In this document: in pieces, positions 3-59,336 of the stretch | Position numbering within the stretch: the stretch's first letter is position 1 | Layout of the letters: each line of letters starts with the position of its first letter | Origin: Owenia fusiformis | Taxonomy: Eukaryota > Annelida > Polychaeta > Sabellida > Oweniidae | DNA length: 64,000 nucleotides | Direction: 5' to 3' | Assembly (NCBI GenBank): GCA_903813345.2 | Contig: CAIIXF020000006.1 | Location: 16,372,348-16,436,347 of the forward strand | Translations under genes and position numbers: made by a program | Notes under the pieces: model-generated | Database searches by the model: none | What the model was told of the DNA's origin: nothing | What the model saw: the letters and a program-made list of their open reading frames with translations, nothing else

Positions 3-182
3 GGCCGCATTCAAGTGGGATCAGATGCTGACCTTGTTCTCTGGGATGCCAACAAGACGCGCACTATCTCAGCCAAGACACATCACCAGGCAGTTGACTT
101 CAACATATTTGAGGGTATGGTGGTCCATGGTGTTGCTTCTACTGTGATCAGCGGAGGAAGAGTTGTACTGGATGAAGGAGAG
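3..182 (+). CDS. CRMP: CRMP exon A (partial at 5' side)
   Basis: This exon gives 60 codons in frame from base 3, beginning [10 protein letters not shown] and ending VVLDEGE, with donor GTATGT at 183. It encodes the end of the amidohydrolase domain ([19 protein letters not shown]). The upstream splice site lies outside the window. Confidence 0.9.
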
Positions 183-3100
183 GTATGTTCCATCAACACC
201 ATATTATATAAAAACTGTAAACCTAGACTAAAACAATTCAAGGTACAAGTACATAACATTACTCTTTTAAGTTTTTCAATAAGAGAACAAAGTTTTTTCA
301 ATCGAATGGTGTCATATGTCATAGGAAATGATTTATCTTTAAAATGATATATAATACATGGCAAAGTTTAACATGTATCATATTTCTTGCATTGAGTAAG
401 TTATTAATTATTTTGTTGTCACGTTTTAGCTTCACGTCACCCAAGGTGTGGGCAAGTTTGTTCCAACCCCTGTCAATGCTGAACATGTATATGGCCGTGT
501 ACGAAACAGGGAATCGGTGAGTTAATTAGACAGGCTTACACATTGGTACTGTCTAACTCACGCTACATAGAGTTTGCTCCCCTGTGTTATAGCTAAGGCA
601 ATTGGCTATGTGCACTAGCAAATTTGATGGGATGATCAGTCCATCATGGTATGATAGGAATTACACCGGAATTAATATATTAATCATCTTAGAATTTGTA
701 TGTAAATAACTTTAAATTTCCATTAAAATAGTAAAATGTTCTGGACAGAATGTATTCAGGACAGTGATGAAACAATGTTTGAAAGGATGAAAAGAACATT
801 TTGTAAGAATTTCTCATGGCAATAAATGCATACATTTCTATAAAATACCTTTTTTACAGGCCCGTATTCCACAAAAGGTAGTTCGTGATCCATATGAAGG
901 CAAAGTCATCGAGATTTCCAATACTGTCGCTGACAGCCATGCTCCCATCAATCCAATCTGTCCCAATGCCATCAATGGTGCAGACCCCTTCTCCACACAT
1001 AGCAGACCCCCTACAAGTAGTGGCGGTAGGAACCTGCAGGATTCTAGCTTCTCTCTTAGTGGTAGGCGTGGTTTGGCTTTTATATGGCACACCCAGCAGA
1101 AAACTTTGATATCTCAAATATTATCTGACACAGGGTTAATTTGGGGGAGTATGAGTTTCATAGGGACTAGGAGTTTCACTTATGTGACATGTAAAGTCTC
1201 AATTGTACAATTGTATATTGCAGTGTCATTCACATGCCTTTAAATTACCTTCTACAATGTATTTATTCAGAAAATATCAAATTGTAAAAATTTCACTTAG
1301 GGCAAATCTGCACTGGGCTTATCAAAGGGAAAATGGGCCTATTAGGCTAATTATTAGTGCAATTTTATCTTTATACTTCATCCTCTTTTTTAGTCACACA
1401 TAGCACATTAACTTTAATCTCACATCATCATTGTAATTTCAATACTATTTCATAACAAAATTTAAAGTTTTCTGCTTCGGTCATAGCTACATTATTTAAC
1501 AAACAAATCAGTCAACGATTCCTTTATTGAAAGATTTTGCTCATGTATTTGAGGGGTAATCGTTGATATGGTCAGCTCATAAAGCTGCACAGAAGTGTGT
1601 AATTTTCTACATGTGAATTGAAACCTTCCAAATTACAATTTCTTTGTGTCATGATGTCCAATCAAGACAGTATCTAGTGGGCTTTGTATAAAAAACCTCC
1701 TACCTCATAACCACCTACCCACCTACGTGGGACATGATACAGTCATTGAAGGGTTGAATTTTAAAGATTTTTAAATCTCAAAATAGCTCTAATTATTAAC
1801 ATTTCTACAATTCTGTCTTTATTTTATGACTAGACGGATGACAGATCCATAAATAAAGGCATATGGGTGCATTGTAATGTGTAATGACCCAAGGGCGCCC
1901 CAGGGGAATAACTAACTAAAGACAGCGAGCATAGGTCCAACAAGCCAGATAAAGAAATTGAAAGAAAGTGTGCTAAATTCGATGCCCCAAGTGGGAATCA
2001 AGCCCAGCTGGGCTGTAGTAGCAACTTGCTATCAAGGATTGTTACAAATGCATCTATAATTCATCATGAACTAAGATTTAATAAACTAAGATCTTTAAAA
2101 TTGAACCCTTCAAAAACTGTATCATGTCCAACGTACCTGGGTAGGTGGGTATGAGGTAGGAGGTTTTTTATACAAAACCTATCTAGTGTATACATACAGT
2201 ATCTACACTGAGATATCGTAACATTACTGAAGGATCCACAAAAACTTCAAAAGTCATGATACATTAAAAACAAAGAAAACATTTGTTAGATTTCAGGAAT
2301 TCTGAATTATTTGAAATGTTTCAATTCACAATCTTATGAGAGCCATCATAGTGGTTAATTTTATTGTAAGTTTTATTACCACCATGATATTGAAATTTCA
2401 TATTTAAAAGGGAATGAGCCCAACGCTGCGTATTATGCAAGCTTCAAATATGACAACGCGAGGCCATGACATGCAACAGCGCATTAAAGTACTTACTAAC
2501 TAAAATGCATCATATTTCATCTTTAAAAGAGCAGCATGTTTTTAAGAGAAATGTCTTAAATAACTTTGATACAATTAATCTATGAATATGATCTGATTTA
2601 ATATCATGGGTGGAAAAATGGTGGCCATTGAGTTCCTTTGTTATAGTTTTAATTGATAATGTAATAAATTCTTATAATCACATAGAAATGGCTAACGGGA
2701 CAGGTATAGTGAAAACTTTATTTTCAAATGTTTCCATGCAACAGATGTCTCCATAGCAACTCCCAGTTTAGTATCTATTTAGTTTAGATATGATTTAAGT
2801 TTTACTTACCACAAGTCTCTCATGCATTAATCTGCTAAAAGAATTGAGTTAGCTCTCTATGAACCCTCAGTTTTCTTTATTTATCCCATTGAATTGGGCA
2901 CGTGGGGGACAAAAAACTTTTCTCCAGATGAATGCAGGATATATGAGACTTATGGGTCATTCACCTTTTAGTCCCCCTCATTTTGTTCAGATTCTGCAAT
3001 ATGATTTTCTTCCAAAGGGACAATGTTTTTAAAGTTTTGTTTATTTTTAGGATTTAGGCTGCCTGCTTGAGTTCAGCTTTTAGCATGGAATTTGTTAAGA

Positions 3101-4646
3101 ATGAGTTGCATATTGTTTAATGCGATTTAGAAATCACAAATTATTGTTATTAATATTTTTATAGAACTATTGTATTATGTTTGATTTTATAGTTTCTATT
3201 TTTCCATAATTTATGTAATCTTTCGGTTTTTGTTAAATTTTAATTTTAAACATTATTTCCTCATAATTTTTGCTTTCCATCTACCTACCAATCATTTAGT
3301 TCAAATACGCTTACATATTGTAGTAGTTTTAATATTATTTTCTCCTTATATTAAGTTTCTCCATATTTAGATTTAATCATCCATATTTTGTTATAATTAA
3401 CTTTTTAAATAATAAATTAGCTTTGTTATTATTAATTTTAGTGCTTTTCCCTCCTGAAATTATGAAATCATTTTTGCTATTGGAAATATCATGCATTACT
3501 GTAGGCAGCATATCAGCCTATGTATAGTACATTAACATTATACATACATCATTATCATATCTGATTAGTAGCCTGAACATACATTTACTTCTATACATAT
3601 TGCAAATATTTAATTTGATATGGTAATGAAGTGTCTAATGTATTGTACAGGAAATATTCAGTGGATCAGTTATTAATTTTTTATGTTACTATCTTTTAGG
3701 AGCACAATACGACGAGAAGAAAAATAAAAAGCCTGCTACTAAAGTATCACAGCCACCAGGGGGAGCTTCATCCTCAATTTGGTAGATAGGTGGCAGCACT
3801 GTGTAGCCATTCCTGATTGGCTGATACATTTCAACGTCATTTAACAGTCATGTGCCAATGTTAGTGCATATATATTTGAGACAAAATCTCAACATGCTGG
3901 AGACAAACTTTTTAAATTTTTAAAGTGCAATGCAGGCTGTTTGAACATGGAAACCCAGAATTGTCCTATCTTGAGGCAAATGGAACTATGTGTATGCATT
4001 ATATCATGTGGTCCTTCTATTGTAGCCTTGATGTTTTGGTGTATATTAACAAGCATGAGTTGCTTTCCCTCCCCAGTCACCACCCAAAATGTGTTCTGCT
4101 TAAATATATTGGAGACTGCATTTAAATATTATATGTGTTTATATAACTAGGTGACCAGTGGGACCAATCATCCCCACGAAAAACAGGGAAACAAGTAAAT
4201 CAGCCACCAGGGGGTGCTAGTCATCAATTGTGGTAGAGCCATCTAGTGGTAAATCATAGAACTAAGTTTGTTTGCAGACGGATCAATTTCATTGGATATG
4301 AGGTGCCACACCTGCAGTGATAATTCCATTTGAATTTTCCATTGAAAATATTTCAAATGTTTTCCCATTATTAGTGCAATATGAAAGTTAGAGGATCATC
4401 AAGTATCATCAAGTATCATCCTCATTGAATGGAATAAATCAAGTTATCATGAAGGAAGGATCACTCTCTCACATGGTCATATTTGCACTAACCTAAAACA
4501 CAACTACAAATGAAATATACAAGTTTTCTACAGAATTTTTTATTCATTATTTATTTGAAGGTTCTCAATTTGATGATCGTAGAAAACAAAAATCTGGAAT
4601 GCGGGTGTCTCAACCACCTGGAGGCGCCACCAGTCAACTTTGGTAG
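3..4646 (+). CDS. CRMP: Collapsin response mediator / dihydropyrimidinase-family protein, 3' end of gene
   Basis: This is the C-terminal part of a dihydropyrimidinase-like protein. The gene starts left of the window. Joined exons are 3-182, 430-516 and 860-1061, followed by one of three last exons (3700-3785, 4151-4236, 4561-4646). All introns are GT-AG and all phases agree. The first exon reads [10 protein letters not shown] and later NIFEGM, hallmarks of the amidohydrolase fold end in DHP and CRMP proteins. Exon 3 ends with [12 protein letters not shown], which closely matches the RNL..SGFSLSG segment of vertebrate CRMP tails. The terminal exons carry a QPPGGA motif matching the APPGGR region of CRMPs. 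CRMPs are cytosolic tetramers that regulate tubulin and axon growth. The middle piece (RDPYEGKV) looks more like DHP, so an invertebrate gene making both DHP and CRMP forms is possible. The metal-binding residues are outside the window, so catalytic activity cannot be judged. Confidence 0.9.
430..516 (+). CDS. CRMP: CRMP exon B
   Basis: Twenty-nine codons, [12 protein letters not shown] through RNRES, are flanked by acceptor TTTTAG and donor GTGAGT. The GVGKFVP stretch aligns with the G.GKFIPRKPF segment of dihydropyrimidinases and CRMPs. Phase is 0 on both sides. Confidence 0.9.
860..1061 (+). CDS. CRMP: CRMP exon C, start of the regulatory tail
   Basis: This exon has 67 codons plus one base, after acceptor TTTTTTACAG and before donor GTAGGC. 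It encodes a linker rich in S, T, P and N and ends [12 protein letters not shown], the conserved CRMP tail motif. It ends in phase 1 with a single G that each of the three downstream terminal exons completes to a glycine codon. Confidence 0.9.
1680..2179. mobile_element. 500-bp foldback element with 9-bp target duplication (MULE-like MITE)
   Basis: The ends are GGCTTTGTATAAAAAACC on the left and the complement of GGTTTTGTATAAAAAACC on the right. The terminal inverted repeat runs about 95 bp. TATCTAGTG is present on both sides (1671-1679 and 2180-2188), a 9-bp TSD. Long terminal repeats with 9-bp TSDs are typical of Mutator-like elements. There is no ORF. It sits in the intron before the CRMP terminal exons. 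Confidence 0.8.
2189..3699 (+). other. Rest of CRMP intron before terminal exon 1
   Basis: This is AT-rich intron sequence in which I see no gene. The last 700 bases are very T-rich, as expected for intron DNA running into the acceptor at 3698-3699. Confidence 0.5.
3700..3785 (+). CDS. CRMP: CRMP alternative terminal exon 1
   Basis: This exon is 86 nt after acceptor CTTTTAG and encodes a 28-residue tail counting the split glycine: [10 protein letters not shown], then [13 protein letters not shown] and stop. The AQ.D start matches the GAQIDD of vertebrate CRMPs. I see no AATAAA between this exon and the next, so its transcript may use a non-canonical poly(A) signal or the downstream ones. Confidence 0.88.
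4151..4236 (+). CDS. CRMP: CRMP alternative terminal exon 2
   Basis: This exon is 86 nt after acceptor ATAACTAG and encodes [10 protein letters not shown], then [13 protein letters not shown] and stop. It has the same length and entry phase as the exon at 3700. AATAAA at 4433 is a plausible poly(A) signal. The acceptor has a weak pyrimidine tract. Confidence 0.85.
4433..4438 (+). terminator. Candidate poly(A) signal for CRMP terminal exon 2
   Basis: AATAAA lies about 197 nt after the stop of the exon at 4151-4236 and before the exon at 4561. It would allow that exon to be a true 3' terminal exon. Confidence 0.5.
4561..4646 (+). CDS. CRMP: CRMP alternative terminal exon 3
   Basis: This exon is 86 nt after acceptor TTTGAAG and encodes [10 protein letters not shown], then [13 protein letters not shown] and stop. 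AATAAA at 4738 lies 92 nt after the stop, giving a compact 3' end. It is the third member of the tandem set. Confidence 0.87.
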
Positions 4647-4737
4647 AACTCCATCTATTGAGCCAATAATGAATTCAAGCAACTCAAGCACCTTCCAAAA
4701 GCTAGTCAAATGAAATCTAATTTCATCTGAAACGGAC

Positions 4738-4743
4738 AATAAA
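4738..4743 (+). terminator. Candidate poly(A) signal for CRMP terminal exon 3
   Basis: AATAAA lies 92 nt after the stop codon at 4644-4646, at the expected place for the gene's final cleavage site. Confidence 0.6.
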
Positions 4744-5510
4744 TTACAGGACTTTATCAAACAGTTCTGTTTTAATTAATTTTATAATTAACATTTGTCT
4801 GATACTAGAACCTAGAACATAGTTTTTATGTTGGTAGTTCAATGAATTGTTGTCTGTAGAAAACATGTTAGTTGTGTTTTAGAATTTTAGTGCCTTTCCT
4901 TCAATTATGCCACATTTCAATATTTGATGATGCATGTTATTATCAACCTTTGGCACTTCATATCCATAGTAATTGCTTGCTGTCTTTAAACTATCTGATG
5001 TTATAACTTCCATGATTTAATATGCAAAAGTTTACAGATGCATGATATTTCAATGAAATCCATTCAATTTGTCATAGAAGGCAAAATGGATGAATATTTG
5101 TGATATAATGACAAGCAATTTGAAAAATTATGTAGACAAGTATTGTTTTGCATTCTGGAATCATTTGGATCTTTAAAGCTCACCTTCTAGTTCACATTTA
5201 ATCAAAGAGATAACTGATTGCTATTATTAGTTATCTGATGCATGTAATAGTTAACTGGTGGCTGACATAGTTAACTGATGGCTAATATAGTTAAATGGTG
5301 GTACTGTTTAGGAAGGCAGAGTTGATTGTGATTGACTATGAAACATGCTTACATATACATGCAGTGTCAGTATACAAAACTATGTGTAAAAGGTTCATGT
5401 TCATTGTCAAATTGCTATTTCTGTTCTGCCTGCCTTAACCGATGAATGGGTATAAGAAAACAACATCAAGCTATGTATAAGGTATGTATTGTAGAGCTTA
5501 TTAAGGTGGG

Positions 5511-10228: not shown

Positions 10229-13200
10229 CAGTAAAACCTGTCTTACACCTCTCAAGCTGGAAACACCTGTATTTATTATGAGCTCCACTATAAGAAGACA
10301 CATTTTACATTGACGTCTATATAAAATCCCTTCTCTGTAGCAGTTGGACGGCACATTGCCTTAACCCATCAGCTTTATGACGTGCACTTCCGCGATGGAC
10401 TATATCTTTACAACGGGAATTTCAAGTTTTTGTCAGTGTAGACATAAAAAGTTGCGGTCCTCTTACTCGCGCAGTTTTTAATATTTTCATTTGAAACTTG
10501 CAGGAACGGTGCTTTGAATCTAGCTCTCTACTCTTTGAAAACGTCATGTATAATCAATACAGTTGACCTATTTATTTTTTGTCGCGAAAACATTATTTTT
10601 TTAGTTTATTTTTATTTTACAACTTTTTGGGAAAAAATGTAACAAATTTTTATTTCTTGTCATATTTATCCGATATTTTGTCATCATGAAATTCGAGATT
10701 CTTTTTAATGATGGTGCAAATTTCATAACAATTGATGAATTTTTATTATCAGTGTTATGTTTTCCAAAAAGGGTGTACCACTGTGCATGTTTCTTTAATT
10801 GACGGCACATTTGCTTTTAATTGGGCGAACGTACAGGTCCCGACGCAATAAGCTTTATTTGATTTAATACACTCAAAAATAAAGTTTGCTATCAAATCGG
10901 AATGTTCATAAAACATAAACCTTGCCTTCGTTTTCCCAATTCTAAAAGCAGACCAAATAAACTATGATAATCGTTTGACTCTCGAGACTACAGAACTTGA
11001 ACTTGAACATACTAAAATCGAAGTTGCCTATAGTTACGCTTGTAAAGTTAATTACATGTTTAACGGCCTGCTGAGTGAATGTATCTAATCAAACTTGTGA
11101 CATACCCATAAGATCGTAGATCACAATTCTAAGTTTAAATGTAATTTGGATTCGTAAGAAGTAATTCTATTTTAAACTTACCTTTGCTGTCTGAAAAAGA
11201 TCAATATTCATAGACGGGGATGTTGAAACCTATATTTCCTTTGAATGACCTGCATTTGTACTACGAAATGATCCTGTGGAGAAAAGTTGATGAATTCCAA
11301 ACAGCTAGTTCTAGCAAATCTACTAGTATAAGCTTACTTTCTTTCTTATTATTTCAATGTTAAAAATATCTATTCAAATGTTTCATTTTTAAAATGATCT
11401 TGGCTTCCCTTAACTTAAATGTGTGACTTATGAAGAATGCTTTTTACCACATCAAACTTAAGACGTGAACTTGACAATTACTCGTGTTATAACGCGATTT
11501 TCTTTCATTTTCTACAAAAATGGTATGTTTTCGAAAGGTCACTTATGTTAATCTATCACCTTGGTATGATTGAAAATGAAAGAACTGAACCAAGTATTGT
11601 CGACTTGTTTGAATTATAAGATTTATTTTGATTGATTTAATCTCTTCTTGAATTTTAAAACTTTTGTCCGAATTACATCTGCTATGGAATTAAAGTTCAA
11701 ATATACCTCAGAATTGCTTATTGAATTAACCTAGCAATTAATTTGAAAATAATGCTTTTCATAGGTTATATATCATAGATCATAGATATGTAAAAAATAA
11801 AAATGTGTTTTGAAAGATGAATTGATAACAAACGTTTTTGCACACGTGCCATTTCCACTTTCAGCCCACTTAAAGCACGAAATCCCGTATGACGTAATGT
11901 AACGAAAATGCTCAGATAATTGATATTTTTTATTTTAATTCAACTCACAATGACCGTTCAGTTATGAACGTTTTTAAAGTTCTCATGTTAAAATAAATAA
12001 ATATGTGGAAAGGCAATGGTTTAAAGCTTATGAAAATGTCAAAATCATAATTCAGTTTTAAAAAAAAAGATATTGACATGGTATGGTTCTTTATTTCCTC
12101 CAATTTGGAGAGCAAATTAATACAAAAGACAAATTATTATTTTCTCATGGAAGGAATCAAGCAAAAATTATAAAAATAATTCTGTGTAGAGGTGATGCCT
12201 CACAAATAATATTAATGTAAAAAAATTAATTCATTTCTTCAAAATTAAATACTGACGCGCATTTACGCACACATGACCTTTTCCAGTTTTGCATATTTCA
12301 TTGACCTTGAAAACCAATGAGACTGGACGCAATTGCCAAATACTTCGTTGATACGCGTGCCAGGTCTATAATTGCATTTTCTAATGGAAGGAATCAAGCA
12401 AAAATTATAAAAACAATTCTATGTTTAGGTGATGCTTCACAAATAATATTAATGTCAAAAAATGAATTCATTTCTTCAAAATTAAATACTGACACGCATT
12501 TACGCACACATGACCTTTTCCAGTTTTTCTTATTTCATCTACCTTGAAAATCAATGAGACTGGATGCAATTGCCAAATACTTCTTTGATACGCGTGCCAG
12601 GTCTATAATTGCATTTTCTCATGGAAGGAATCAAGCAAAAATTATAAAAATAATTCTATCTCAAGGTGATGCTTCACAAATAATATTTATGTCAAAAAAT
12701 TAATTCATTTCTTCAAAATTAAATACTGACACGCATTTACGCACACATGACCTTTTCCAGTTTTGCTTATTTCATTTACCTTGAAAACAATATGAGACTG
12801 GACGAAATTGCCAAATACTTCTTTGATACGCGTGCCAGGTCTATAATTGCATTTTCTCATGGAAGGAATCAAGCAAAAATTATAAAAATAATTCTATGTT
12901 AAGGTGATGCTTCACAAATAATATTAATGTCAAAACTTTAATTCATTTCTTCAAATCCAAATACTGACACGCATTTACGCACACATGACCTTTTCCAGTT
13001 TTGCTTATTTCATTTACCTTGAAAACCAATATGAGACTGGACGAAATTGCCAAATACTTCTTTGATACGCGTGCCAGGTCTATAATTGCATTTTCTCATG
13101 GAAGGAATCAAGCAAAAATTATAAAAATAATTCTATGTTAAGGTGATGCTTCACAAATAATATTTATGTCAAAAAATGAATTCATTTCTTCAAAATTAAA

Positions 13201-14528
13201 TACTGACACGCATTTACGCACACATGACCTTTTTCAGTTTTGCTTATTTCATTTACCTTGAAAACCAATATGAGACTGGACGAAATTGCCAAATACTTCT
13301 TTGATATGCGTGCCAGGTCTATAATTGCATTTTCTCATGGAAGGAATCAAGCAAAAATTATGAAAATAATTCTATGTTAATGTGATGCTTCACAAATAAT
13401 ATTAATGTCAAAACTTTAATTCATTTCTTCAAATCCAAATACTGACACGCTTTTGCGCACACGTGACCTTTTCTTCTTTTGCTCATTTTATTTATCCTCA
13501 AAATCAGTAGGCCTAAATACATTGTCCGATACTTCTCTAATACGTGTCAGGTCTAAAATTGCAGTTTATCATGAAAGAAATCGAACAATTATCATAAAAT
13601 AACTATGTGTAAAGGTGACTGATGTTCTTCAGATTATATAAACATCAAAATTGTAATTCATTTATTGAAGGTTAAATATCCACATGCTTTTAGGCACACA
13701 TAACCTTTTCCCTTTCGTTCATTTTATCTATCTTTAAAATCAGTGAGCCTGAACTCATTGCTAAATACTTTTTGATACGAGTCAGCTCCAGGTCTAAAAT
13801 TGCATTTCATCATGGAGCAAATCGAGCAATCATTATGAAAATAATTCTGTGTAAAGGTGATGTTCCAAAGACAATATATATGTCAATTTGATAATTCAGT
13901 TACTCAAAATGAAATATCCACATGATTTTACGCACACATGATAATTTCCTGAATGACGCTACTTTTTGGATTCAACCATGCATATAACGTCGTAAAATAC
14001 ACATTTCTACCGAAATTATGCCCAGCCGTTTTCGTAGAAAATGTAACAAATGAAGGCATTTTATCGGAACTGATTGATATTTGGTACTTATAGAATATCG
14101 TATTTACTTTAACTTTTAAGCGATTCAGACATTTAAAAAAATTATGTTTAATCAATGTTAATTTCGCACGAATATAGGGTACAAAATGAGTGAAAGTCCC
14201 ACGTGTTTGATTGCATTTTACTCCCATTTATGTGCATTTTTCTAACATTAAAACGAGATAGTTGGAAAGAAGAGATCAGTAGAATTTTATCCGTCACTTT
14301 CATTTTCAAATGTTTAAATGTTTCCCGTTTCATTGGACCTCATAAAGATGGTAGCCAACGAACCAGAAACAAGTAGTGCGATGACGTCATATATCGCTAC
14401 ACCACTTTGATATAAAGTTTGGTACAATGGGTTTTTTCAATGTGCCGTCCTACTGTAGTGAACACTTTTACCTACAGTGAACACTTCTTAGTGACTCCAT
14501 AGGTGTTCACTATATACAGGTTTTGCTG
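10229..14528. mobile_element. 4.3 kb non-autonomous element with pogo-type ends, holding a satellite
   Basis: The left end is CAGTAAAACCTGT and the right end is the complement of CAGCAAAACCTGT. Both are flanked by TA (10227-10228 and 14529-14530), as expected for a TA-targeting element of the Tc1/mariner/pogo kind. A second matched block, GACGGCACATTG, lies near 10348 and, inverted, near 14445. No transposase frame is visible. The interior is mostly the 238-bp tandem array. The ends are divergent, so the element is old, and the boundaries rest on short matches. Confidence 0.55.
12060..13945. repeat. 238-bp satellite array, about 8 copies
   Basis: The unit is marked by CGCACACATGACCTTTTCC and TCATGGAAGGAATCAAGC, recurring about every 238 bp (for example near 12268, 12506, 12743, 12980 and 13219). 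Central copies are nearly identical and outer ones decay, the usual pattern for unequal exchange. A diverged fragment appears near 11840. Short frames here, such as 12317-12547, are by-products. Confidence 0.85.
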
Positions 14529-15682: not shown

Positions 15683-18600
15683 GTAAGTATACATTATATC
15701 CAGATATTATAGATTGTAAGTTAATCATAGAAACAAAAGTAATGTTCGTAAATAGTTAGCAAATGCATAGATTTGATATTGTTTCATTATTTGTCCACTT
15801 CCGCTAAAGATCGAGTTCTAATTTTTTGAGCGACAAAGAAAGTTTTAGAAGCAAGTTCAGGAACCTATATTTACGACGGTAGTTGAATTTCAATACAATA
15901 AGTAATACGTAGTTGTAAATAATAATGTGAAGGAAATTCCGTTCACTGTGATATCAACTGATATTCCTTTTGTACACGGGGCTAGGAAGAAGATTTATAC
16001 CGTAGGAATTTTGCTGCAACCCAATGTTATTTTTCAAATTTGAATCACTCCTTCCCCACAATGTCTACATCTCTCACTTTTGTGCAATGAGTGCACTAAT
16101 GTACACCCAGGCCTGTTAACTTGGCACCATGTAACATGAGTGACTTCCAAATGTTTGAACACATTCCTTCAAATTTTGGACACCTTACTGAACACTGGTC
16201 AATTTTGGACACCTAAAATTTTTCCTGTTCGGTACCGCTAGCGGTTCGCGAGGGCATACTTGTTAAATAGCGCCCCCAAGGACTCCTTAGAAAAAATACA
16301 TAAATTAGGTATAATAAAGCCCAAAATGATTTGATTTTTTAGACCCAGTGCCCAAAATTCGCGGGATTTTGCGGGACATCTACTAAATTCGCGGGATTTC
16401 GCAGGACATTTAAGGGATTTGCGTGATTGCGCTTATAGGCCAATTTTTTTTATCAAATTCGCGGGATTTCGCGGGACCATTCGAGGGACAAACACCCTAA
16501 TTCATGTAATTGCGGGACAGTTAACAGGTTTACCAGCAAAAACTTCATAGAGGGACAGATTTTCTAGAAAAAGTGCCCTAAATTTGCGGGATTTCGCGGG
16601 ACATCCACCTAAATTTGCAGGATGTCCCGGGACATTCAAGGGATTTGCGTGATTTGGACTAATGTAAAAGCGTGTAAAAGTACTTAAATCTAACTTTCAG
16701 AAACTGATTAATCAAATATAATGCACCGTTACATTGTAACTTAAATAAACGTCAACATAACTTCACAAAATACGCATAGAAATATTATTTCAATTGAAAG
16801 CCCATGGTATAGGGTTTCGATTAATCTACATCAAATTATAGGGAATGCGGTTACTTTTTCTAGATAGGGTTTGTAGAAAAAACCGGGTACCGGGTAGTAA
16901 ATCCTCAATGCTGGGTTCAAACTTGGTACCCGGTCGAAAAAACCGGGTACCCAAAAAACGAAATATACTAATATACAACATAATTAGATCATTAGAAAAC
17001 GTGTAATATTTGTTTTGAATTTACAAAAATGTATGTAACTTCCTTCAAAATTGAGATAGAAGCTTCAAATAAAAAGCATTTTAAGCCTCTTTTCTTCCTC
17101 TATCATCATGGTCATATTTCCATTGGTAATGAAGGGGGAGGGGGGGGGTGCGATCGCACCATCACACCCTCACCTGGCTCCGCCAATGACATTGTAAGAC
17201 GATTTGAATAACAAGGCAAATCAATTTTACTCTATTTTCAATAGTTCGTATGTTGGTACGTGAATTGTTTTGATTATGATTTAAATCTGTAAATTGCTAT
17301 CGTTGCTTTAGCAGAGAGGTGACGTGTGTTAATTTACATGATGCAATGTGTAAGATTTTGATTATTGATTTAAGTTATCCCAACTGTCGACAAAATGTCC
17401 ACTGAATTGTCCACTAAATTGTTATGTCTTACAATGTCATAGGCGTAGCCAGGAGAGGGTGCGATGGTGCGATCGCACCCCCCCCCCATAACCGATGAAA
17501 ATATGGTCATGACGATAGAGGAAGAAAAGAGCCTTAAAATATGCCTTTTATTTGAAGCTTCTAGCTCAATTTTGAAGGATGTTACACACATTTTTGTAAA
17601 TTCAAAACAAATCTTACACGTTTTCTGATAATCTAATTATGTTATACTCGTATATTCGTTTTGTTTTTGGGTAAGCTTACCCGTTTTTTGACCAGGTACC
17701 GGGTACCAAGTTTGAACCCAGCATGGAGGATTTACTACCCGGTACCCGGTTTTTTCTACAAACCCTTTCTAGATATCAGCGTCCATTTATTGTAACTCGC
17801 GTTTGCTAACATTTGCTCAGTTCTGAGATGAAGGCCACACGGATAGTAAAAAGGCCAACGTTGGAACTATTTGACCTACATCCCTATTGTCATAATTAAA
17901 ATGAAAGTTGAACCCTTCCTCTTTATTTTGATACCAAACAACAGCATGCTAGGTACTTAAAATTAGGTAAACTTTTACTCTTCAAAAGTGCAAAAACTTA
18001 GCTTCTTATATAAGATTAGATAATCACAATATAGGCTAGGGGATAATCCCGCCATTCGCGGGACACTTGACAGCTCTGATAAAATGCACCTTATTATCTA
18101 AAAAAAACTCTCCTAATGTATTAATACATTTTAAAATACAGGGTTCTTCTTATATGGTAACATCGTCTTCCTATATATAACTCGTCAAATAGCGCCCCTT
18201 CGCCATAAATCCAATGGGAAAATAACATGAAGGGGCGCTATTTGACGAGTTATATATAGGAAGACGATGTTCCCTAGATTTCGTTATTATAGACTAGGAA
18301 GAAGTGTCTTAATATAGCGCGCTAATTAACAAGTTATATTATACACTTATTAAACAAATTTTGTAAAATTTAAAGCAATTTTTTTTTTTTAATTTATTTA
18401 TTACAGACACTACAACGTAAGATTACATTCTAAAAGGGATTTATTTTTGGGGCCTTATATAAAAAAGGGGCAAGGTATTTTTTTGGGAAAAAAAAAATAA
18501 TTAAAATATGAAAAAGGGGCACTATTTAATAGCGCCCCTAACATTAGGATATTAGCATTGAGGGGCTCTATTTAATAGCGCCCCTTACATTATGACATTA

Positions 18601-21600
18601 GCATTGAGGGGCACTATTTAATAGCACCCATCGCTTAATAATATTACATTATATTAATAACGCCCCTCACATTATATTAGCATTATGGGGCCACTAATGA
18701 TATATAATAAAACTGCAAAGTAAATACTAATAGTGCCCCTTTACATTAAAATATAACATTATAGGGGCACTATTTAATAGCGCCCCTTACATTATAATAT
18801 AACATTTTTATAGACTAGGAAGAAGTGTCTTATTATAGACTAGGAAGAAGGCTCTTATTATAGCTCGTTAATTAGCGCCCCTCCGCCATAAATCCAATGG
18901 TGAAATGGCATGGAGGGGCGCTATTTGACGAGTTATATATAGGAAGACGATGTTCCCTAGATTTTGTTATTATAGATTAGGAAGAAGTGTCTTATTATAG
19001 CTAGTTAAATAGCGCCCCTCCGCCATAAATCCAATGGTGAAATAGCATGGAGGGGCGCTATTTGAAGAGTTATATATAGGAAGACGATGTTCCCTAGATT
19101 TCGTTATTATAGATTAGGAAGAAGTGTCTTATTATAGCTCGTTAAATAGCGCCCCTCCGCCATAAACCCTATGAGAAAATAACATGGAGGGGCGCTATTT
19201 GACGAGTTATATATAGGAAGATGATGATCACAATTTTTTTTTATTGTAGACTAGGAAGAAGTGTCTTATTATAGCTCGTCAAATAGCGCCCCTCCGCCCT
19301 AAATCCTATGAGAAAATAACATGGAGGGGCGCTATTTGACGAGTTATATATAGGAAGACGATGATCACAATTTTTTTTTATTGTAGACTAGGAAGAAGTG
19401 TCTTATTATAGCTCGTCAAATAGCGCCCCTCCGCCATAAATCCTATGAGAAAATAACATGGAGGGGCGCTATTTGACGAGTTATATATAGGAAGACTTTG
19501 TTCCCTAGATTTCGTTATTATAGACTAGGAAGAAGTGTCTTATTATAGCTCCTCAAATAGCGCCCCTCCGCCATAAATCCTATGAGAATATAACATGGAG
19601 GGGCGCTATTTGACGAGTTATATAAAGGAAGAAGATGATCACAATTTTTTTTTTTTTATTATAGACTAGGAAGAAGTGTCTTATTATAGCTCCTCAAATA
19701 GCGCCCCTCCGCCATAAATCCTATGAGAATATAACATGGAGGGGCGCTATTTGACGAGTTATATATAGGAAGAAGATGATCACAATTTTTTTTTTTTTAT
19801 TATAGACTAGGAAGAAGTGTCTTATTATAGCTCCTCAAATAGCGCCCCACCGCCATAAATCCTATGAGAATATAACATGGAGGGGCGCTATTTGACGAGT
19901 TATATATAGGAAGAAGAAGATCACAATTTCTTTTTTTTTTTATAGACTAGGAAGAAGTAAATTAGATAATAAGGTGCATTTATATGAAATTATTTTCAAT
20001 CTAATTCAATTTTTGAGATGTTTTTGAAGTATAGCTTTATTATACTCAAATGAAAGGCAATTTAGAGTAGATTGCAAAAATTGTAGCATTTTTCTGATCC
20101 GGGCCTCAAAAAATTCAAAATGGCTGCCTAATGTGGGATTTCGCAATTATTTTCGTATCTCTTTAAAGTATGGCTATATTAACTCAAATTGAAGGAATCA
20201 CAATTATGGCATTGTTTTTATCGCACCCTTAGGTGCTATATTGTAATCAGTTTGCCGGGCGGGTGGTTGGGCGGGCGGGTGTCCCAAATAATCTTGTCTA
20301 CAGGATTCCAGCCAAACCGTTTGAGGGATTCATTTGAAATTCTCAGGGATGTTTCTACCTATGAAAGTTTAGAACTGATTAGTTTTTCGACATTCTGGGT
20401 AAATGTTAAGGCGGCCATTTTGGATTTTCCGTCCCAAAATCTTGTCTGTCAAGGCTTGTCTACAGGTTTCCAGCCAAACCGTTTGAGGGATTCATTTGAA
20501 ATTCTAAGGGATGTTTCTACCTATGAAAGTTTAGAACTGGTTAGTTTTTCGGCATTCTGGGTAAATGTTAAGGCGGCCATTTTGGATTTTCTGTCCTAAA
20601 ATCTTGTCTGTCAAGGCTTGTCTACAGGTTACCTGCCAAACCGTTTGAGGGATTCATTTGAAATTCTCAGGGATGTTTCTACCTATGAAAGTTTAGACCT
20701 GATTAGTTTTCAGCATTCTGGGTAAATGTTAAGGTGGCCATTTTGGATTTTCCGTCCTAAAATCTTGTCTGTCAAGGCTTGTCTACAGGTTTCCAGCCAA
20801 ACCGTCCAAGGGATTCATTTGAAATTCTCAGGGATGTTTCTACCTATGAAAGTTTAGAACTGATTAGTTTTTCGGCATTCTGGGTAAATGTTAAGGCGGC
20901 CATTTTGGATTTTCCGTCCTAAAATCTTGTCTGTCAAGGCTTGTCTACAGGTTTCTAGCCAAACCGTTTGAGGGATTCATTTGAAATTCTCAGGCATGTT
21001 TCTACCTATGAAAGTTCAGAACTGATTAGTTTTTTGACATTCTGGATAAATGTTAAGACGGCCATTTTGGATTTTCCGTCCTAAAATCTTGTCTGTCAAG
21101 GTTTGTCTATAGGATTCCAGCCAAACCGTTTGAGGGATTCATTTGAAATTCTCAGGGATGTTTCTACCTATAAAAGTTAAGAACTTAATAGTTTTTCGGC
21201 ATTCTTGGTAAATGTTAAGGCGGCCATTTTGGATTTTTCGTCCTAAAATCGTGTCTGTGAAGGCTTGTCTACAGGTTTCCAGCCAAACCGTTTGAGGGAT
21301 TCATTTGAAATTTTCAGGGATGTTTCTACCTATGAAAGTTTATAACTCAATAGTTTTTTGGCATTCTGGGTAAATGTTAAGGTGGCCATTTTGGATTTTC
21401 CATCCCGAAAAAGTGTATTCTGTTCAAGGGTGCGATTCTGTTCACCGTGTGGCTTATTCTGATTTGTGTCTCTGAAAATTCAAAATGGCTGACTAGAGCA
21501 GAAATTCACCATTACTTAGAGTTATCTTGAAAGTATGGTTACATTATACTACAATGATCTAATATATTTATTGAAGGAAAGAGTAAATATTACATTGTGA

Positions 21601-23646
21601 CTGTACAGATTGATGATTTATATAGTGTTCGTTGGGATTTGCTATTCCGTGGAGTTGCCATTTTCTAGTTGCACAATGGTCTCCTGATTTTCATTTTTCA
21701 TTATGAAATATCAAACCTTTTCTTGTTCTGCCGATTAACCTACAGTTGGGGATTCTGTAATTCATTTTTATGTAGGTTTCGGAAGAAATTAGTTTTTGAA
21801 TGGCACAGAGTGTACATATACTATCCACAATAGGACCAATTTATGCCAAACATTACGGGAGTAGATGATATCAGTAACTCATTTCAGTCATTATGACTCT
21901 GTGGAAGGGAATGATTGGGACACTTTACTGTAAGTCAGTCTTAGTGTCAAGGTAACCGCTTCCCAGTTAATTACATGGATTATTTTCATATTCAGCAATA
22001 TATTTTTCTTTTCCAGGAAAAAAATACTACTTCAACACCAGCACTAAAGAGTCCCAGTGGGAACCACCAATGGCAGGAGAAAAAGTTCGCTGTTCCCATA
22101 TTCTTGTGAAACATAAAGATTCACGCAGACCATCCTCATGGCGGGAAGAAACAATAACTATAACAAAAGAAGAGGCCCTTGAAAAACTTACAGGTATGTC
22201 ACATGTATTGTTTTATCAAATAAAGCTATATCTTATATGTTGGAAATAGGGGTCAATTTAAATGGCACCGGATTATGTAAAGTTTGCTTGAGATCCCCCC
22301 ACCCCATGTGAATTTGATTCACAATATTGCCCCCGGGATAGGAATTTGATGCCGCCTCCAAAAAAAGTTGCACCTCCTCATTCTACTTGTATTCATAGAC
22401 AACTCTACAAGTTGCCCACCTATTCCATAAGAACTGATCCAACATACGTACAGCTTTATTATCCCAACGAACGAAGTTCGTTAGGGATATAGTGAAGCCC
22501 TCCGTCCGTCCGTCTGTCAGTCCATCAGTGCGTCAGTCAGTCAGTCAGTCAGTCCGTCCGTCTGTCCGGAAGATAACTCAAATACTAGTTGACAGATTTT
22601 CTTCATATTTAGTGGAAAGATGTATATTGGTGAATAGTTTTACGCTAAAAAAAATTTTCCAAGATGGCCGCCGCTTTAAAAATGACGGGACTTTTTCGCA
22701 AAAATCATAAATTTTTCATTCTAAACCAAAGTAATTAATATTATTGTTTGAAATTTTGGTAGTGCATTCACAACATTTATCTATTTCACATATATTCCGT
22801 GTTTTTCATCCTGACCCCCAGGGGCCATGTATGGGGGGACAGGAAAACAGAAATTTTCGCTAATTTTTAGATCTTTCTGAAGTATAGCTTTATTATACTC
22901 AAATGAAAGGCAATTAAGAGTAGATTGCAAATATTGTATCTTTTTTCTGATTCGAGCCTCGTAAAATTCAAAATGGCCGTCTAATGTACGATTTCGCAAT
23001 AATTTTTCGATCCCTCAAAGTATGGCTATATTATACTCAAATTGAAGGAATTTTGGAGTAGATCACAATTATGTTATTATTTTTCAGATTTGTACCTCAG
23101 AAAATTCAAAATGGCTGCTTTGCAGGAATTCGCAATTCTAAAATCTAATTTTTTCATTTTCAACCAAAGTATTGAGTATAATTGATTGGAATTCGGTAAT
23201 TGATATTTTGTTCGTTGGGATTTGCTACTCCGCGGAGTTGCCGTTATCTAGTTCTCCACTTTTGTTGAACAGATACAAACCATGGCCCTTCCCAGCCCAT
23301 TTTTGTCAAAAATATCAGGCATTAGACTGACATTCTACTAGAAAAACTTTTGAATGGTGCATTGTGGTAACCTTCAGATTTTTAATGCCTTGTTATCTGA
23401 TAAAATGGTTTCCATTATTTTTCAGGACTGTTTGAAAGGATTAAGTCTGGGGAGTCTCAGTTTGACGAAATTGCACAAGTTGAGAGTGACTGTAGCTCAG
23501 CAAAGCGAGGTGGAGATCTAGGATTTTTCGGTAGAGGGCAGATGCAAAAGCCGTTTGAGGATGCAGGATTCTCTTTAGGAGTTGGAGAGATGAAATGTCC
23601 TGTTTCGACAGATTCAGGAGTGCACATTGTCAAGAGATTAGAATAA
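15634..23646 (+). CDS. PIN1: PIN1 peptidyl-prolyl cis/trans isomerase, complete
   Basis: Exons 15634-15682, 22017-22193 and 23426-23646 join to a 148-residue protein. PIN1 isomerises phospho-Ser/Thr-Pro bonds in nuclear and cytoplasmic regulators. The N-terminal WW domain (residues 4-34) has W8 and W31 and the YYFN core. Phosphate-contact residues appear as K11 and S13. The parvulin domain (about 38-148) keeps H44 (CSHILVKH), the basic site K48, R53 and R54 (SRRPSSW), catalytic C98 (SDCSSAK), the GQMQKPFE motif with M115 and F119, and H142 near the end. The WW-parvulin linker is about 15 residues shorter than in human PIN1 (163 aa). The start is chosen at the methionine five residues before PVGWE. 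The frame is open further up to an ATG at 15505, so a 43-residue extension is possible. Intron 1 is 6.3 kb and repeat-filled. Confidence 0.96.
16112..16665. mobile_element. CCTGTTAACT-ended element with CGCGGGATTT repeats, in PIN1 intron 1
   Basis: It begins CCTGTTAACTTGG and has the mirrored end GGGACAGTTAACAGG at about 16514-16528. The interior and right flank repeat words like CGCGGGATTTCGCGGGACA. A relative with the same kind of ends lies at 27729-28041, and a lone right-end-like piece (GGGACACTTGACAG) lies near 18060. Confidence 0.5.
16867..17765. mobile_element. 899-bp foldback element with 10-bp target duplication (MULE-like)
   Basis: Both ends read GGGTTTGTAGAAAAAACC inward. TTTCTAGATA flanks both sides (16857-16866 and 17766-17775). 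The arms match for about 350 bp around a spacer of roughly 200 bp. They include GGTACCGGGTA, a shared short frame (MYVTSFKIE or MCVTSFKIE) and GGTGCGATCGCACC next to a G or C run. The termini resemble those of the 500-bp element at 1680-2179. Confidence 0.85.
18159..18271. repeat. Perfect 43-nt-arm hairpin, founder-like unit of the hairpin satellite
   Basis: Arms 18159-18201 and 18229-18271 are exact reverse complements around a 27-nt loop. The inner part (AACTCGTCAAATAGCGCCCC) is the same palindrome repeated in the satellite downstream, so this unit may resemble the ancestor. Confidence 0.85.
18400..18835. repeat. Degenerate AGGGGCACTATTTAATAGCGCCCCT palindrome block
   Basis: Short palindromic words pairing GGGGC.CTATTTAATAGCGCCCC recur about every 60 bp, between runs such as ACATTATAATATAACATT. 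It looks like a decayed side branch of the neighbouring hairpin satellite. Confidence 0.6.
18850..19965. repeat. Satellite of hairpins, 137-141 bp period, 8 units
   Basis: Each unit carries CTCGTCAAATAGCGCCCCTC, a 27-nt loop (GCCATAAATCCTATGAGAA and onward), and the reverse complement of the arm. AGGGGCG recurs at 18914, 19051, 19188, 19325, 19462, 19599, 19740 and 19881. Some left arms differ by a base (CTCCTCAAAT for CTCGTCAAAT), weakening but not destroying the stem. It lies in PIN1 intron 1 on the sense side. Confidence 0.9.
19985..21670. mobile_element. Dispersed element copy A, containing a 162-bp array
   Basis: The left part (GAAGTATAGCTTTATTATAC and onward) and the right end (GTTCGTTGGGATTTGCTATT) both recur in the copy at 22455-23245. 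The element holds a short GGGCGGGTGG block and seven 162-bp repeats. It has no coding potential of its own. Boundaries are approximate. Confidence 0.55.
20290..21415. repeat. 162-bp tandem array, 7 copies
   Basis: CCAAACCGTTTGAGGGATTC recurs at 161-162 bp spacing (CCGT at 20317, 20479, 20641, 20802, 20964, 21126, 21288). Because 162 is a multiple of three, one frame stays open over two copies. Most copies break it with TAA, so I do not call a gene. Confidence 0.9.
22017..22193 (+). CDS. PIN1: PIN1 exon 2
   Basis: This 177-nt exon follows acceptor TTTTCCAG and ends at donor GTATGT. It encodes the second half of the WW domain (KKYYFN, SQWEPP) and the basic substrate pocket ([17 protein letters not shown]). 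Confidence 0.96.
22455..23245. mobile_element. Dispersed element copy B in PIN1 intron 2
   Basis: It starts with the palindrome AACGAACGAAGTTCGTT and GGGATATAGTGAAG, followed by a GTCC/GTCA microsatellite (about 22500-22570). It ends GTTCGTTGGGATTTGCTACT near 23216-23245, as copy A does. The middle has repeated CAAAATGGC words. No intact ORF. Confidence 0.6.
23426..23646 (+). CDS. PIN1: PIN1 exon 3
   Basis: This 221-nt exon runs from acceptor TTTTTCAG to stop TAA. It holds catalytic cysteine 98 (ESDCSSAK), [12 protein letters not shown] and the terminal [12 protein letters not shown] strand. Confidence 0.96.
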
Positions 23647-30200: not shown

Positions 30201-33200
30201 TCTTGCCTCTCATGTACCAGGTCAATATTTAAATAATGCCAAAAAATATTTATATTTCCAATCCTACCTCCCTCACAAATGTAACTGAACATTTACTGAT
30301 CATGATCAAAATGTATCTCACTTATACTAAAAGTGTAATGGACTTTTTACCCCCACCCAAACAAATTAATTCTTTACACTAGTGGATATCAATCATAAAC
30401 TAGCCTTTTCCTAATTTTTTTGCTAAAATGTCAAAAACATGACCATGTTAGAATTTTTGAGATGGGGACATCCTACACCTGATTAAGAGGAGGAGCGCTC
30501 CCATAATGCACCAATAACATTTTGAATGACAATAAAGTTATCTGGCCATAACTTTTGAAATTAAAATGAACAGAGCTCCATATAAATTAAGGCAAATAAT
30601 TCTAAAATTTTATCAAAATTATGAAAAAGCGCTGAGATTTTATAATGATACTAATACTAATGGAGCACTCATCCCATTTAATCATGCGGACACAAAACCA
30701 AATTGTGACAAAGGCAATTGCAAAAGTAGTTTTCATTTGTTAGGTTCACACTAACAGGTATCATTAGAAACAATTAATGGGTATTGAAGAGAATTTGAAA
30801 TGTTTGGGTGTAAAAAAAAACCAAGCAGCATGCTATCTTAAATGTGAAATTGTAGCTGATAAAATACATCAAAAAGAGATTGTTAATGTTCATATCATTT
30901 GCACAAACAATTTGAAAATGATACAAAACAGATTTAACTATATATGATGATATGTTAAATCAAGCATCTACAGGCAAAATAAGCAAGAAGCTGAGTTTTG
31001 TGTTTGTTCATTGCGAATATCAAGCCGTCAACACTTTAAAATGCCCAAGTGTCCTGGTGCGGAAGTCTCAACTTCTGGAGTTGCAATATTTCAGGCTCCT
31101 TCCTTGCGTCATCATTTGATTAATTTGACTAATTTATCTTAATCTATTATGCAGTGTGTGTACTTACTTACCATACTTAATTCGAATAACACACATGATA
31201 TTTCCAAACAAACCTGTGATTCAATGATAAAAGACATCCTGTTTTTCTTCTTAATATATTTCCTTTTTAAAACATTTTCGGTATTCTCTCCAGAATTTTT
31301 TTCAATTGGGTCAAATTCATTGGTATATATTCTGACTCAGTGAGATTCAAGGCTCGGCCAAAATTATCTAATTTATGATTTTTACAAAATTCTTAACTGA
31401 TATTTTTCTCATATGAATGATCACAGGTATGTACTTACTACTTAATACAAGAGAATATGTCCAAATAACGAGAACTTAATAAACTGTTATGTGTACATAT
31501 ATTACAGTCTGATTTTGAAAATATTGATTGCCCAAATGCAACTTAGCACGTGACCTTTTTTATTTTTATAGCAAAGTGTGACACGTCTTGCCTTAAACAT
31601 GACATCAAGCAGAAAATTACATATTTTCAAGTTGCTTTCTCGGGGGAAGAAGACCAAAATGAATTCATAATGTAATTATTTGTTTTTTCAGAAGTTGAGA
31701 TTTGGACATGATCCCTTAAGTAAAAAATTAAATAAATTCACACCCTGGATAAAAATTTCCAACATTGAATAAATCAAAAGACAGAGGAAATAAAGCGACC
31801 AGGGTTTATTTTTTAGAAATGAAGTGTATACTCAGTGTTCCAGAAACGAAACCAAAGAATGGCTTCAAAACTGGATCACCCTGTAGAAAAATGTTAACAT
31901 ACCTAGGAACAAATTGATTAGCCGGTCGCTTTGGTCGATACTCCGGGTGCACCATGAAGAGCATGTGTGGAAAGCCAGTGCCAAAATAAGCGCCATCTGT
32001 GTGGTGGTGTCGAGACGATTTTGGGGTGTAGACATCCTGACATTTTGGACAATATAGTTTCACCATTGCTTCACCAGGTACATCAGATAAACCTAACAAT
32101 TAAAGGAAAATGCCAAATATTTATATCTGGTTATTTTCCACATAAAATGAATCAAGGAACAAATAAACTAAAACTATATATTTTGTATGACATTACTAAT
32201 CACGTGGGGGCCAATCTGATTGATCAGTTGATTTTAGTACGTTATTTATGACCATTAACAGTTATCTAACATTTCTTTTATAATGGCTATCGCAAGAACT
32301 CTCTCGTTGGGCTTACAATGAAGAAAACCGCATTTTTGTAGCTGCAAGTTGAGAAAACCTTGTCCTTAAAAGGAAAATGCCAAATATTTATATCTGGTTA
32401 TTTTCCACATAAAATGTATCTCTCCTGTTTAAATCCAGCAGTTGAAAATATTAATCATTGGTCAGTAAATGCGATTAACATTCTATTTCAATATTTATTT
32501 AAGAGAGAATCAGATCTAAGCGAGCAGGTGAACAAAAAATTGTACCAATTTTAGAATATTTCTGGCTCATGTCATTTCTTGTCATATCTATTTTCTAGAA
32601 ATCCCCAAAGCGCACACTTTATTTCAGGAAAACTAGCAATTTTTACAATGATGTATTATTTTTCTATAAAAATGGTTAACATTCTTATTATTTGGGAGAA
32701 TTTAAACATTTTTCACCCAATTCTGCACTTTGAATCCATTATAACTTCACCAATTTATAACATATCATGAATCTTTTTGGAGATATTGTATTTGAAACTG
32801 TAAGGAATAGATTGGTAGGTCAATTGTACATTTTGCTTGTAATTTTGTCACCCCTATAGATCTGATTCTGCCTTTAAAGAAATCAATGAGTATGTTCTGA
32901 GACATGGTTCCACTACGAACAAGTTTCACTGTGTTTCAACAAAACTGAATTATTTACGTATGGGTTACATTACATTTGGTTGATTTCTGATTGGTCAATA
33001 TAATGCAATCAACATTTTATTTCAATATCAATATTCATTTAAAAAATCATTGAGTATATTCTCAGAAATGGTTCTACTAGGAACAAGTTTCATTGTATTT
33101 TAACATAACTGAATTATTTACCTATGGGTTACATTACATTTGGTTGATTTCTGATTGGTCAATACAATGCAATCAACATTTTATTTCAATATCAATATTC

Positions 33201-34480: not shown

Positions 34481-35124
34481 GGTTTGATTGTCTTTTTACT
34501 TTTCAGCACTTATTTTTCTTTATTTGTAGTAGACCTGCAATGTTTACAACTTCTGAAGTCAATACATACAGCGTACAAAAATGCAAATAGTGCCTTTGAA
34601 TATTCATGCATGGCATTGCATGTACATTGGTATTTGACTGTGATCACTGGTGTTTGCGCTTATATCCAAGTTCTGTCTTCTCTGTCATGTTTGGTGCAAT
34701 CAAACAATGCTTGAAGCATCAACACACAGACTTGAAGTTGCTGGTCATTGAATGGTTTGGGAAAATTGTAGACTCTGACAGACTTATTGCATTGAAGAAT
34801 TACAGCCTCTGAACAATTCAGTTTAATTTTGAGAAAATTAAAAAATATGAATGTATTTTTCCAGATGACATTGCATTATTAAATATAATGACGTTTGGAA
34901 AACTTTAATTTTTCATTACCTCCCACATTTTTGAGGAGTCAACTTCCCCATGCGCAGTGCGCTAAATGACAATTATTAGACTGAATAATTTGATTTTTCA
35001 AACCATCAAGAAAATTTATCCTACTGTATTTGGATTGACTCCATTTTGGTTAGTCTATGAGACAGTGTTAGGCTACTAAAGGACCTAAATGAAAGACTTC
35101 CACTTAACTAATAATCTCAGCCTA
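34481..35124. promoter_or_regulatory. CSNK2B upstream region, probable promoter
   Basis: No gene is visible. TGCGCAGTGCGC at 34951-34962 resembles an NRF1 site with one extra central base. NRF1-type sites are common in housekeeping promoters. The transcription start is not determined. Confidence 0.35.
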
Positions 35125-35510: not shown

Positions 35511-35531
35511 TAGAGATCTATTTGCCACTAG

Positions 35532-36299
35532 CACCCTATGCAGACAGAGCCTGTGGGAAATATTGGGTGCGGCGCAAATGAGCGGAGGGTGCGGAGCTAA
35601 CGGTCATTTTTGAATTTAAAATTGGGATATTTCTGAAACTAAGCCGTTTTGGGACTTCAAATATACCAAGATATGTCTATTTGACACCAAATATCAATAA
35701 AATTGTGAAAATAGTAGTGCAATTCATTTTATAGCGACGCATTATGCCTTAAACATTTCCCAGACCTATATATTTTGAAACTATCCTTTTAATACTGCGT
35801 CCCCAGCATTCATAAAAAATGGTGTTCAAGATACACTACCCATGCAAATTATTTTTGCATCTTGGAAGCCATGCAGTATCTGTGTGATTTTATAAAAATT
35901 CGGAAATGTTTTTCAGATATGAGCCCCCTCTAAATATTGGGTGCTGAGGAGCTCCATAAACGTACCTCCGCACCCAATATTTAGAGGGGGCTCATATCTG
36001 AAGAACATTTCCTTGAACACCATTTTTTATGAATGCTGGGGACTCAGTATTAAAAGGATAATTTCAAAATATATAGGACTGGGAAATACTGCGTCGCTAT
36101 AGAATGAATTGCGCTACTATTTTCACAATTGTATTGATATTTGGTGTCAAATACACATATCTTGGTATATTTGAAGTCCCAAAACGGCTTAGTTTCAGAA
36201 ATATCCCAAATTTAAATTAAAAAATGACCGTTAGCTCCGCACCATTCGCTCATTTGCTCCGCACCCAATATTTCCCACAGGCTCTGTCTGCATAGGGTG
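35532..36299. mobile_element. 768-bp foldback element, CACCCT ends, 5-bp target duplication
   Basis: Both ends read CACCCTATGCAGACAGAGCC inward. ACTAG lies on each side (35527-35531 and 36300-36304). The arms run about 360 bp around a 45-bp centre that again holds AAATATTGGGTGC. It has no ORF. The termini and TSD length match the 6 kb element at 44578-50550. Confidence 0.88.
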
Positions 36300-37487: not shown

Positions 37488-37488
37488 A

Positions 37489-38202: not shown

Positions 38203-59336
<21,134 letters not shown>

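Follow-up and report, generated by a model that had tools for sequence, protein, structure and literature searches.

CRMPs are nerve-growth proteins of animals, and the locus described here raises the question of whether a single gene of the CRMP/dihydropyrimidinase family could provide its product with three different C-terminal tails and, if so, how one tail would be chosen over the others. The window, meaning the whole stretch of DNA analysed, is 64,000 nucleotides of the Owenia fusiformis genome (contig CAIIXF020000006.1, positions 16,372,348 to 16,436,347 of the forward strand), and coordinates below count from its first letter. The window opens inside the gene, of which three shared exons are visible:

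3..182, + strand: CRMP/dihydropyrimidinase exon truncated at the start of the window, with 60 codons and its donor at 183 (translation; phmmer against dihydropyrimidinase and CRMP chains)
430..516, + strand: CRMP/dihydropyrimidinase exon of 29 codons, with a GTGAGT donor at 517 (translation, splice-site scoring, body match)
860..1061, + strand: last shared exon, with C-terminal SFSLSG, donor at 1062 (translation; SFSLSG matches CRMP chains)

When the 108 amino acid body visible here was compared with PDB chains it was nearer to dihydropyrimidinase (2vr2, 119.6 bits) than to CRMP1 (102.3), CRMP2 (98.5) or CRMP5 (75.6), a point absent from the original prediction for this DNA; with a tail included in the query, CRMP1 came ahead (132.2 vs 120.3 bits), the CRMP chains aligning on through the tail and the best dihydropyrimidinase match ending at query residue 115. 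The gene therefore combines the C-terminal part of an amidohydrolase fold, homologous to CRMPs and dihydropyrimidinase, with a CRMP-type tail (SFSLSG...PPGG) that is missing from the dihydropyrimidinase match. Pfam amidohydrolase matches of the body scored under the curated cut-off, and the metal-binding residues of dihydropyrimidinase lie upstream of the window, outside the visible 108 residues of the body. A dihydropyrimidinase-like body with a CRMP tail is consistent with an unsplit gene of ancestral type, and may be read as such.

The donor at 1062 (GTAGGC, phase 1) lies at the 98.8th percentile among GTs scored by splice-site frequencies, and from it an intron of approximately 2.6 kb extends to the first of three tandem exons, which were identified by translation, tblastn, PDB match and splice scoring:

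3700..3785, + strand: E1, alternative last exon 1, 27-residue tail and stop
4151..4236, + strand: E2, alternative last exon 2, 27-residue tail and stop
4561..4646, + strand: E3, alternative last exon 3, 27-residue tail and stop

The coordinates predicted for these exons all check: each is 86 nt including the stop, with an AG directly before it, the frame from donor 1061/1062 continues into every one of them, the G at 1061 supplying the first letter of one and the same Gly codon, and all end in QPPGGA-xxx-[IL]-W followed by TAG. Eleven of the 27 tail positions are identical in all three, and 12 of the 16 that differ lie ahead of QPPGGA. A tblastn search of the 64 kb with each tail returned the other two (E values from 1e-6 to 2e-8) and no other match with E < 0.2, so that a fourth copy was not found on either strand of the window. 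As a control, AG-led 86-nt open reading frames of this phase were counted over the 64 kb, giving 31 on the + strand and 35 on the - strand; when PPGG and W-stop were added to the search, three of the 31 (E1, E2 and E3 themselves) and none of the 35 remained. Since same-phase frames of 86 nt are this frequent by chance, equal length and phase alone are weak evidence, and it is the shared motif and the homology that are decisive. The exons are thus homologous, in the same phase and each provided with an acceptor AG and a stop, as tandem duplicated alternative last exons are, and their best reading is probably as alternative last exons used one per mRNA. Chaining of the exons through the GT at the W-stop codons was also considered and rejected, these sites scoring at the 67.8-87.6th percentile vs 98.8-99.4 for the three CRMP donors.

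The matched PDB chains, which we take to be human, showed where the tails come from. On their own, E3 and E1 matched CRMP5 best (4b90, E 1.7e-4 and 4.3e-4 respectively), in both cases up to the final residue W, and E2 matched CRMP1 best (4b3z, E 3.8e-4), with PR[KR]TG in common, while its alignment with CRMP5 (E 0.015) also extends as far as the W. All three align to the CRMP5 C-terminus, final W included, free of gaps, and among PDB chains the tails matched only CRMPs, except for a weak match of E2 to a CDC6 peptide (E 1.1). By best PDB match E2 is thus nearest to CRMP1 and E1 and E3 to CRMP5, a difference that is not taken as orthology as the tails are short. Since CRMP5 agrees with them in tail length and in its final W, the equal length and ending of E1, E2 and E3 are inherited from an ancestral tail; of the claim that one gene makes three tails through exons of identical length, the three in-frame alternative last exons stand as the probable reading, and the identical length is a matter of descent. 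The anchor role given to the PPGG..W end in the original prediction is a guess.

The most variable tail positions are 548-559 (CRMP2 chain numbering). These include T555, a Rho-kinase site of CRMP2, and most CRMP phosphorylation sites sit in the C-termini (PMC7325199, both points from the available part of its text). E2 has R-K-T at 552-554, reading R-K-T-G where CRMP1 has R-R-T-G, and is the only one of the three tails with the S-P-R-K (at 550) of a CDK-type site; E3 has K-Q-K-S, its last residue at 554; E1 has P-A at 554-555, and so no S or T there, its K-P-A-T ending at 556. A [KR]-V-S at 557-559 is found in E1 and E3, and the net charge of the tail is +3 for E1 and E3 and +1 for E2. As judged from these alignments, then, the three tails differ at the segment where CRMP2 has its Rho-kinase site. 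CRMP tails carry phosphorylation switches linking guidance cues to microtubules, and a triplet that proved old and phylum-wide would be a natural test of the role of the last 27 residues.

The copies are well diverged. At the nucleotide level E1 and E2 are identical at 45/86 positions, E1 and E3 at 49/86 and E2 and E3 at 47/86, and at the residue level, counting the shared Gly and the stop, at 14/29, 15/29 and 16/29 respectively. Nei-Gojobori pS was 0.68 for E1-E2, 0.89 for E1-E3 and 0.85 for E2-E3, the last two being past correction, and pN was 0.43, 0.30 and 0.35; with approximately 19 synonymous sites per pair in such short exons the estimates of saturation are coarse. Of 12 comparisons between flanking 100-nt blocks, nine gave z < 2 against shuffled bases (the other three 2.0, 2.5 and 2.7), while for the exons z was 3.2 and 3.3 for two pairs and only 0.9 for E2-E3, whose relation shows at the protein level. 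Synonymous divergence at or near saturation, lower pN and mostly shuffle-like flanks point to an old triplication in which three frames were retained. Neutral copies were simulated from E3 with substitutions only (6000 runs per rate). At 0.2, 0.5 and 0.9 substitutions per site, the share of runs in which the copy still had its AG, frame and stop was 19.0%, 3.3% and 1.0% respectively, and the share in which PPGG was also retained was 4.1%, 0.08% and 0.02%. We conclude that the duplications are old, with all three frames apparently under purifying selection. The stretch CAGCCACCAGGGGG.GCT is near letter-for-letter the same in E1 and E2, with E3 differing at five of these six codons, and this likeness could reflect later common ancestry, conversion or constraint at the DNA level.

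Splice sites were scored with site frequencies and expressed as percentiles among 3194 AGs. The acceptor of E1 scored at 95.8, that of E2 at 69.9 (weak) and that of E3 at 85.8, compared to 87.9 and 99.8 for the two upstream CRMP acceptors; the E2 acceptor ranks 76th of the 216 AGs in 1062-5200, with higher-scoring AGs near it, for example at 4077. Two candidate poly(A) signals follow the exons:

4433..4438, + strand: AATAAA downstream of E2, its candidate signal (sequence)
4738..4743, + strand: AATAAA downstream of E3, its candidate signal, followed after approximately 26 nt by T/G-rich sequence (sequence)

With AATAAA occurring at 1.3 per kb in the window, such signals are weak as evidence. 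The interval between E1 and E2 has no AATAAA or ATTAAA, so that the 3' end of an E1 mRNA would be either unexplained or extended through E2; at 4103 the interval does have an AATATA, which is preceded by two TGTA and followed by T/G-rich sequence at 4135. The plain model that we infer for the choice of tail is one in which acceptors and 3'-end sites compete.

Our preferred reading, which we hold at a probability of about 0.74, is that the last exon of an ancestral-type CRMP/dihydropyrimidinase gene was long ago duplicated twice in tandem, leaving three copies any of which could be joined to 1061/1062. With acceptor, phase, length and stop preserved in every copy, the donor would be able to join any single one, and the resulting proteins would have a common body and a common PPGG...W end with different tails between. 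Which tail is made would be decided by acceptor choice coupled to 3'-end formation, E1 offering the best acceptor but no standard poly(A) signal ahead of E2, and E2 and E3 each being followed by an AATAAA, with acceptors that are weak and middling respectively. The tails might in this way modulate charge and phosphorylation in the segment that is homologous to the T555 Rho-kinase site of CRMP2.

Two of the alternatives that have to be weighed against this concern which exons are used and what the RNA may do around E3, where a long imperfect inverted repeat was detected by folding and arm alignment:

4237..4540, + strand: 5' arm of this repeat, which encloses E3
4845..5045, - strand: 3' arm, identical to the 5' arm at 136 of 167 aligned positions

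It is unlikely, in our view, that mRNA includes just one of the exons (E3 or E1 being the likeliest), with the others being decaying relics or spliced at noise level. Tandem duplicates do frequently decay, and the weak acceptor of E2 and the lack of a standard poly(A) signal for E1 would suit such a history, but the frame, stop, acceptor AG and PPGG..W have been kept in all three in the face of near-saturated synonymous divergence, and neutral survival of even one copy with its PPGG would be expected in the 0.08% of cases given above for 0.5 substitutions per site. Less likely still is that RNA structure sets the choice, the repeat looping out E3 and covering the E2 poly(A) region. The repeat begins beside the E2 stop and encloses E3 together with its poly(A) signal; the fold of 4237-5080 has a z of -5.7 (20 shuffles) or -6.9 (12 shuffles), E3 being enclosed by 13 long stems nested in one another, and arm-to-arm pairing reaches -48.8 kcal/mol vs -8.8 +/- 3.9 (200 shuffles). 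Among 239 genomic pairs with the same spacing, three equal this strength, and all three lie at inverted repeats visible to blastn. There is also a precedent in the fly PGRP-LC gene, where competing RNA structures reportedly select 3' variable regions (PMC9013439, in the part of its text available). Against this, such repeats are common here and four of 41 other non-overlapping segments fold with a lower z, the stretch 3600-4300 containing E1 and E2 has a z of +0.9, the key sites, at an unpaired probability of 0.45-0.62, are no more than about half paired, and the first, gap-lenient local alignment of a wider region scored 70.6 when the best of 200 shuffles scored 74.2. Other gap settings gave arm identities of 136/163 and 142/162, and blastn detects only a 25-nt piece of the repeat. 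The mismatches are distributed as expected at random (P 0.54), with only eight G-U-compatible ones, so that neither the mismatch pattern nor the G-U counts gave any sign of selection for base pairing, and an ordinary decayed inverted duplication fits. The idea that the repeat is a copy that included E2 was tried and dropped, as the 5042-5241 side matched neither E2, its upstream flank nor E1 (P 0.27, 0.19 and 0.87 respectively). An aged inverted duplication explains the repeat, and a regulatory role for it is possible but unsupported.

The remaining alternative places the choice in the DNA, and it arises from CTCF-like sequences found with a vertebrate matrix:

3750..3768, + strand: CTCF-like sequence within E1, score 23.8, rank 2 in the window
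4201..4219, + strand: CTCF-like sequence within E2, score 26.0, rank 1 in the window
4611..4629, + strand: CTCF-like sequence within E3, score 19.7, rank 3
4234..4252, - strand: CTCF-like sequence at the E2 stop, mainly noncoding, score 17.8, rank 5

On this account the sequence coding for PPGG would be a CTCF site that slows the polymerase and so favours its own exon, which on the present analysis we consider as improbable as a choice set by RNA structure. The top three sites of the 64 kb are the three exons, with rank 5 adjoining E2, and the score of 23.8 was reached in none of 200 random 64-kb sequences. Matches to the CTCF consensus with at most one mismatch number three in the 64 kb vs 0.23 expected, all of them in or beside E1 and E2 (one in each and one across the E2 stop); with two mismatches there are eight, four being these exons and the E2 stop and four elsewhere. 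Precedents come from Cacna1b, in which an exonic CTCF site promotes inclusion of e37a (PMC7124252), and from CD45, in which CTCF is linked to exon 5 and to alternative polyadenylation (PMC8373115), both as given in the parts of these papers available. When the codons were redrawn for the same proteins (usage from 532 window codons, 4000 draws), the observed scores were reached in 3.8% of draws for E1, 1.1% for E2 and 28% for E3, but the redrawn means of 16.0, 15.5 and 17.4 respectively show that every PPGGA-coding stretch is CTCF-like, suggesting that the likeness is mostly, perhaps not wholly, due to the PPGG codons, with a small excess remaining. Rank 4 (18.6) lies at 17446, away from the exons, the E3 score is under the random maximum of 21.7, and 16 of the 200 random sequences had a best site of at least 17.8. 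The block in E1 and E2 may be common by descent and hence not two independent cases, and the E1 and E2 sites are without CpG, so that they would offer nothing for a methylation switch like that of the precedents to act on. A motif match is not binding, and in the echinoderms studied CTCF has diverged, lost zinc fingers and seems to act differently (PMC13317027, from the portion of text available). The combined form, in which an ancestral-type gene with three tails would use its PPGG codons as CTCF roadblocks that select the last exon co-transcriptionally, is the least probable of all; if it were true, a protein motif and the DNA switch selecting that motif would share the same bases.

Other features of the window were as follows. 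In the CRMP intron before E1 there is a 92-nt inverted repeat (1680-1771 with 2088-2179, 90% complementary) resembling a small foldback element, and longer inverted repeats (85-95% identity), which may be mobile elements, occur at 16859-17773, 35528-36304 and 36661-37488. Four satellite-like tandem arrays of 4.6 to 8.2 copies were found at 12139-13941 (unit 237 bp), 18830-19958 (137 bp), 20293-21405 (162 bp) and 32873-33627 (164 bp). A domain scan for side genes, covering 10 of 425 open reading frames, identified a WW domain and a PPIC-type rotamase in two frames at 21971-23643 (+), which we take to be a PIN1-like gene, two frames with the casein kinase II regulatory subunit at 33885-34495 (-), and, across 18 kb at 41524-59387 (+), two frames with the RPN1 N-terminal domain and two with proteasome/cyclosome repeats, presumably a PSMD2/RPN1-like proteasome gene. 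The window gave no Rfam matches at gathering threshold and no tRNAs.

The triplet is real and of interest for CRMP biology; its kind is already established and the CRMP case is apparently new. The tropomyosin C-terminus is a coiled-coil end and the CRMP tail a disordered phospho-tail. Like the CRMP gene here, the tropomyosin genes TPM1, lev-11 and Tm1 each have three tandem duplicated 3' exons encoding homologous C-termini, and C-terminal swaps make up 77 of 236 human tandem duplicated exon events, in a survey whose main text makes no mention of DPYSL (PMC9741552). Isoform use is established for tropomyosin, whereas the CRMP triplet is so far a matter of genomic sequence. No report of duplicated CRMP last exons was found among the matches listed for open papers, most of them represented by the title and the start of the abstract. 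The original prediction of a solution that had not been described consequently holds for CRMP genes as far as these sources go, but not for last-exon triplets as such, given those of tropomyosin. KRAS 4A/4B is similar in that alternative last exons exchange a short unstructured regulatory tail, but it has two exons, and 4A is suggested by its authors to derive from a duplicated NRAS exon and not from a local tandem copy (PMC9882654, available text). The Cacna1b pair e37a/e37b resembles E1 to E3 in being similar exons (approximately 60% identical in nucleotides), of which one is promoted in its inclusion by a CTCF motif, but it is a mutually exclusive pair under CpG methylation for which CTCF binding has been shown, where the exons here have only motif-like sequences (PMC7124252, same portion). 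Drosophila CRMP also has homologous mutually exclusive exons, with a zinc-binding His changed to Gly between isoforms, but the fly exons hold residue 192, in the body, and give an enzyme-type switch, whereas here it is the last exon that was copied (PMC7954323, part of text). The ends of vertebrate CRMP5 and CRMP1 are gap-free homologues of the tails, with the same SFSLSG ahead of them, but vertebrates have five CRMP/DPYSL genes, of which three give isoforms with either a long or a short N-terminus, and no duplication of the tail exon was seen for them in the available part of the source (PMC7325199). Vertebrates thus spread CRMP function across five genes, while here one gene could carry three tails.
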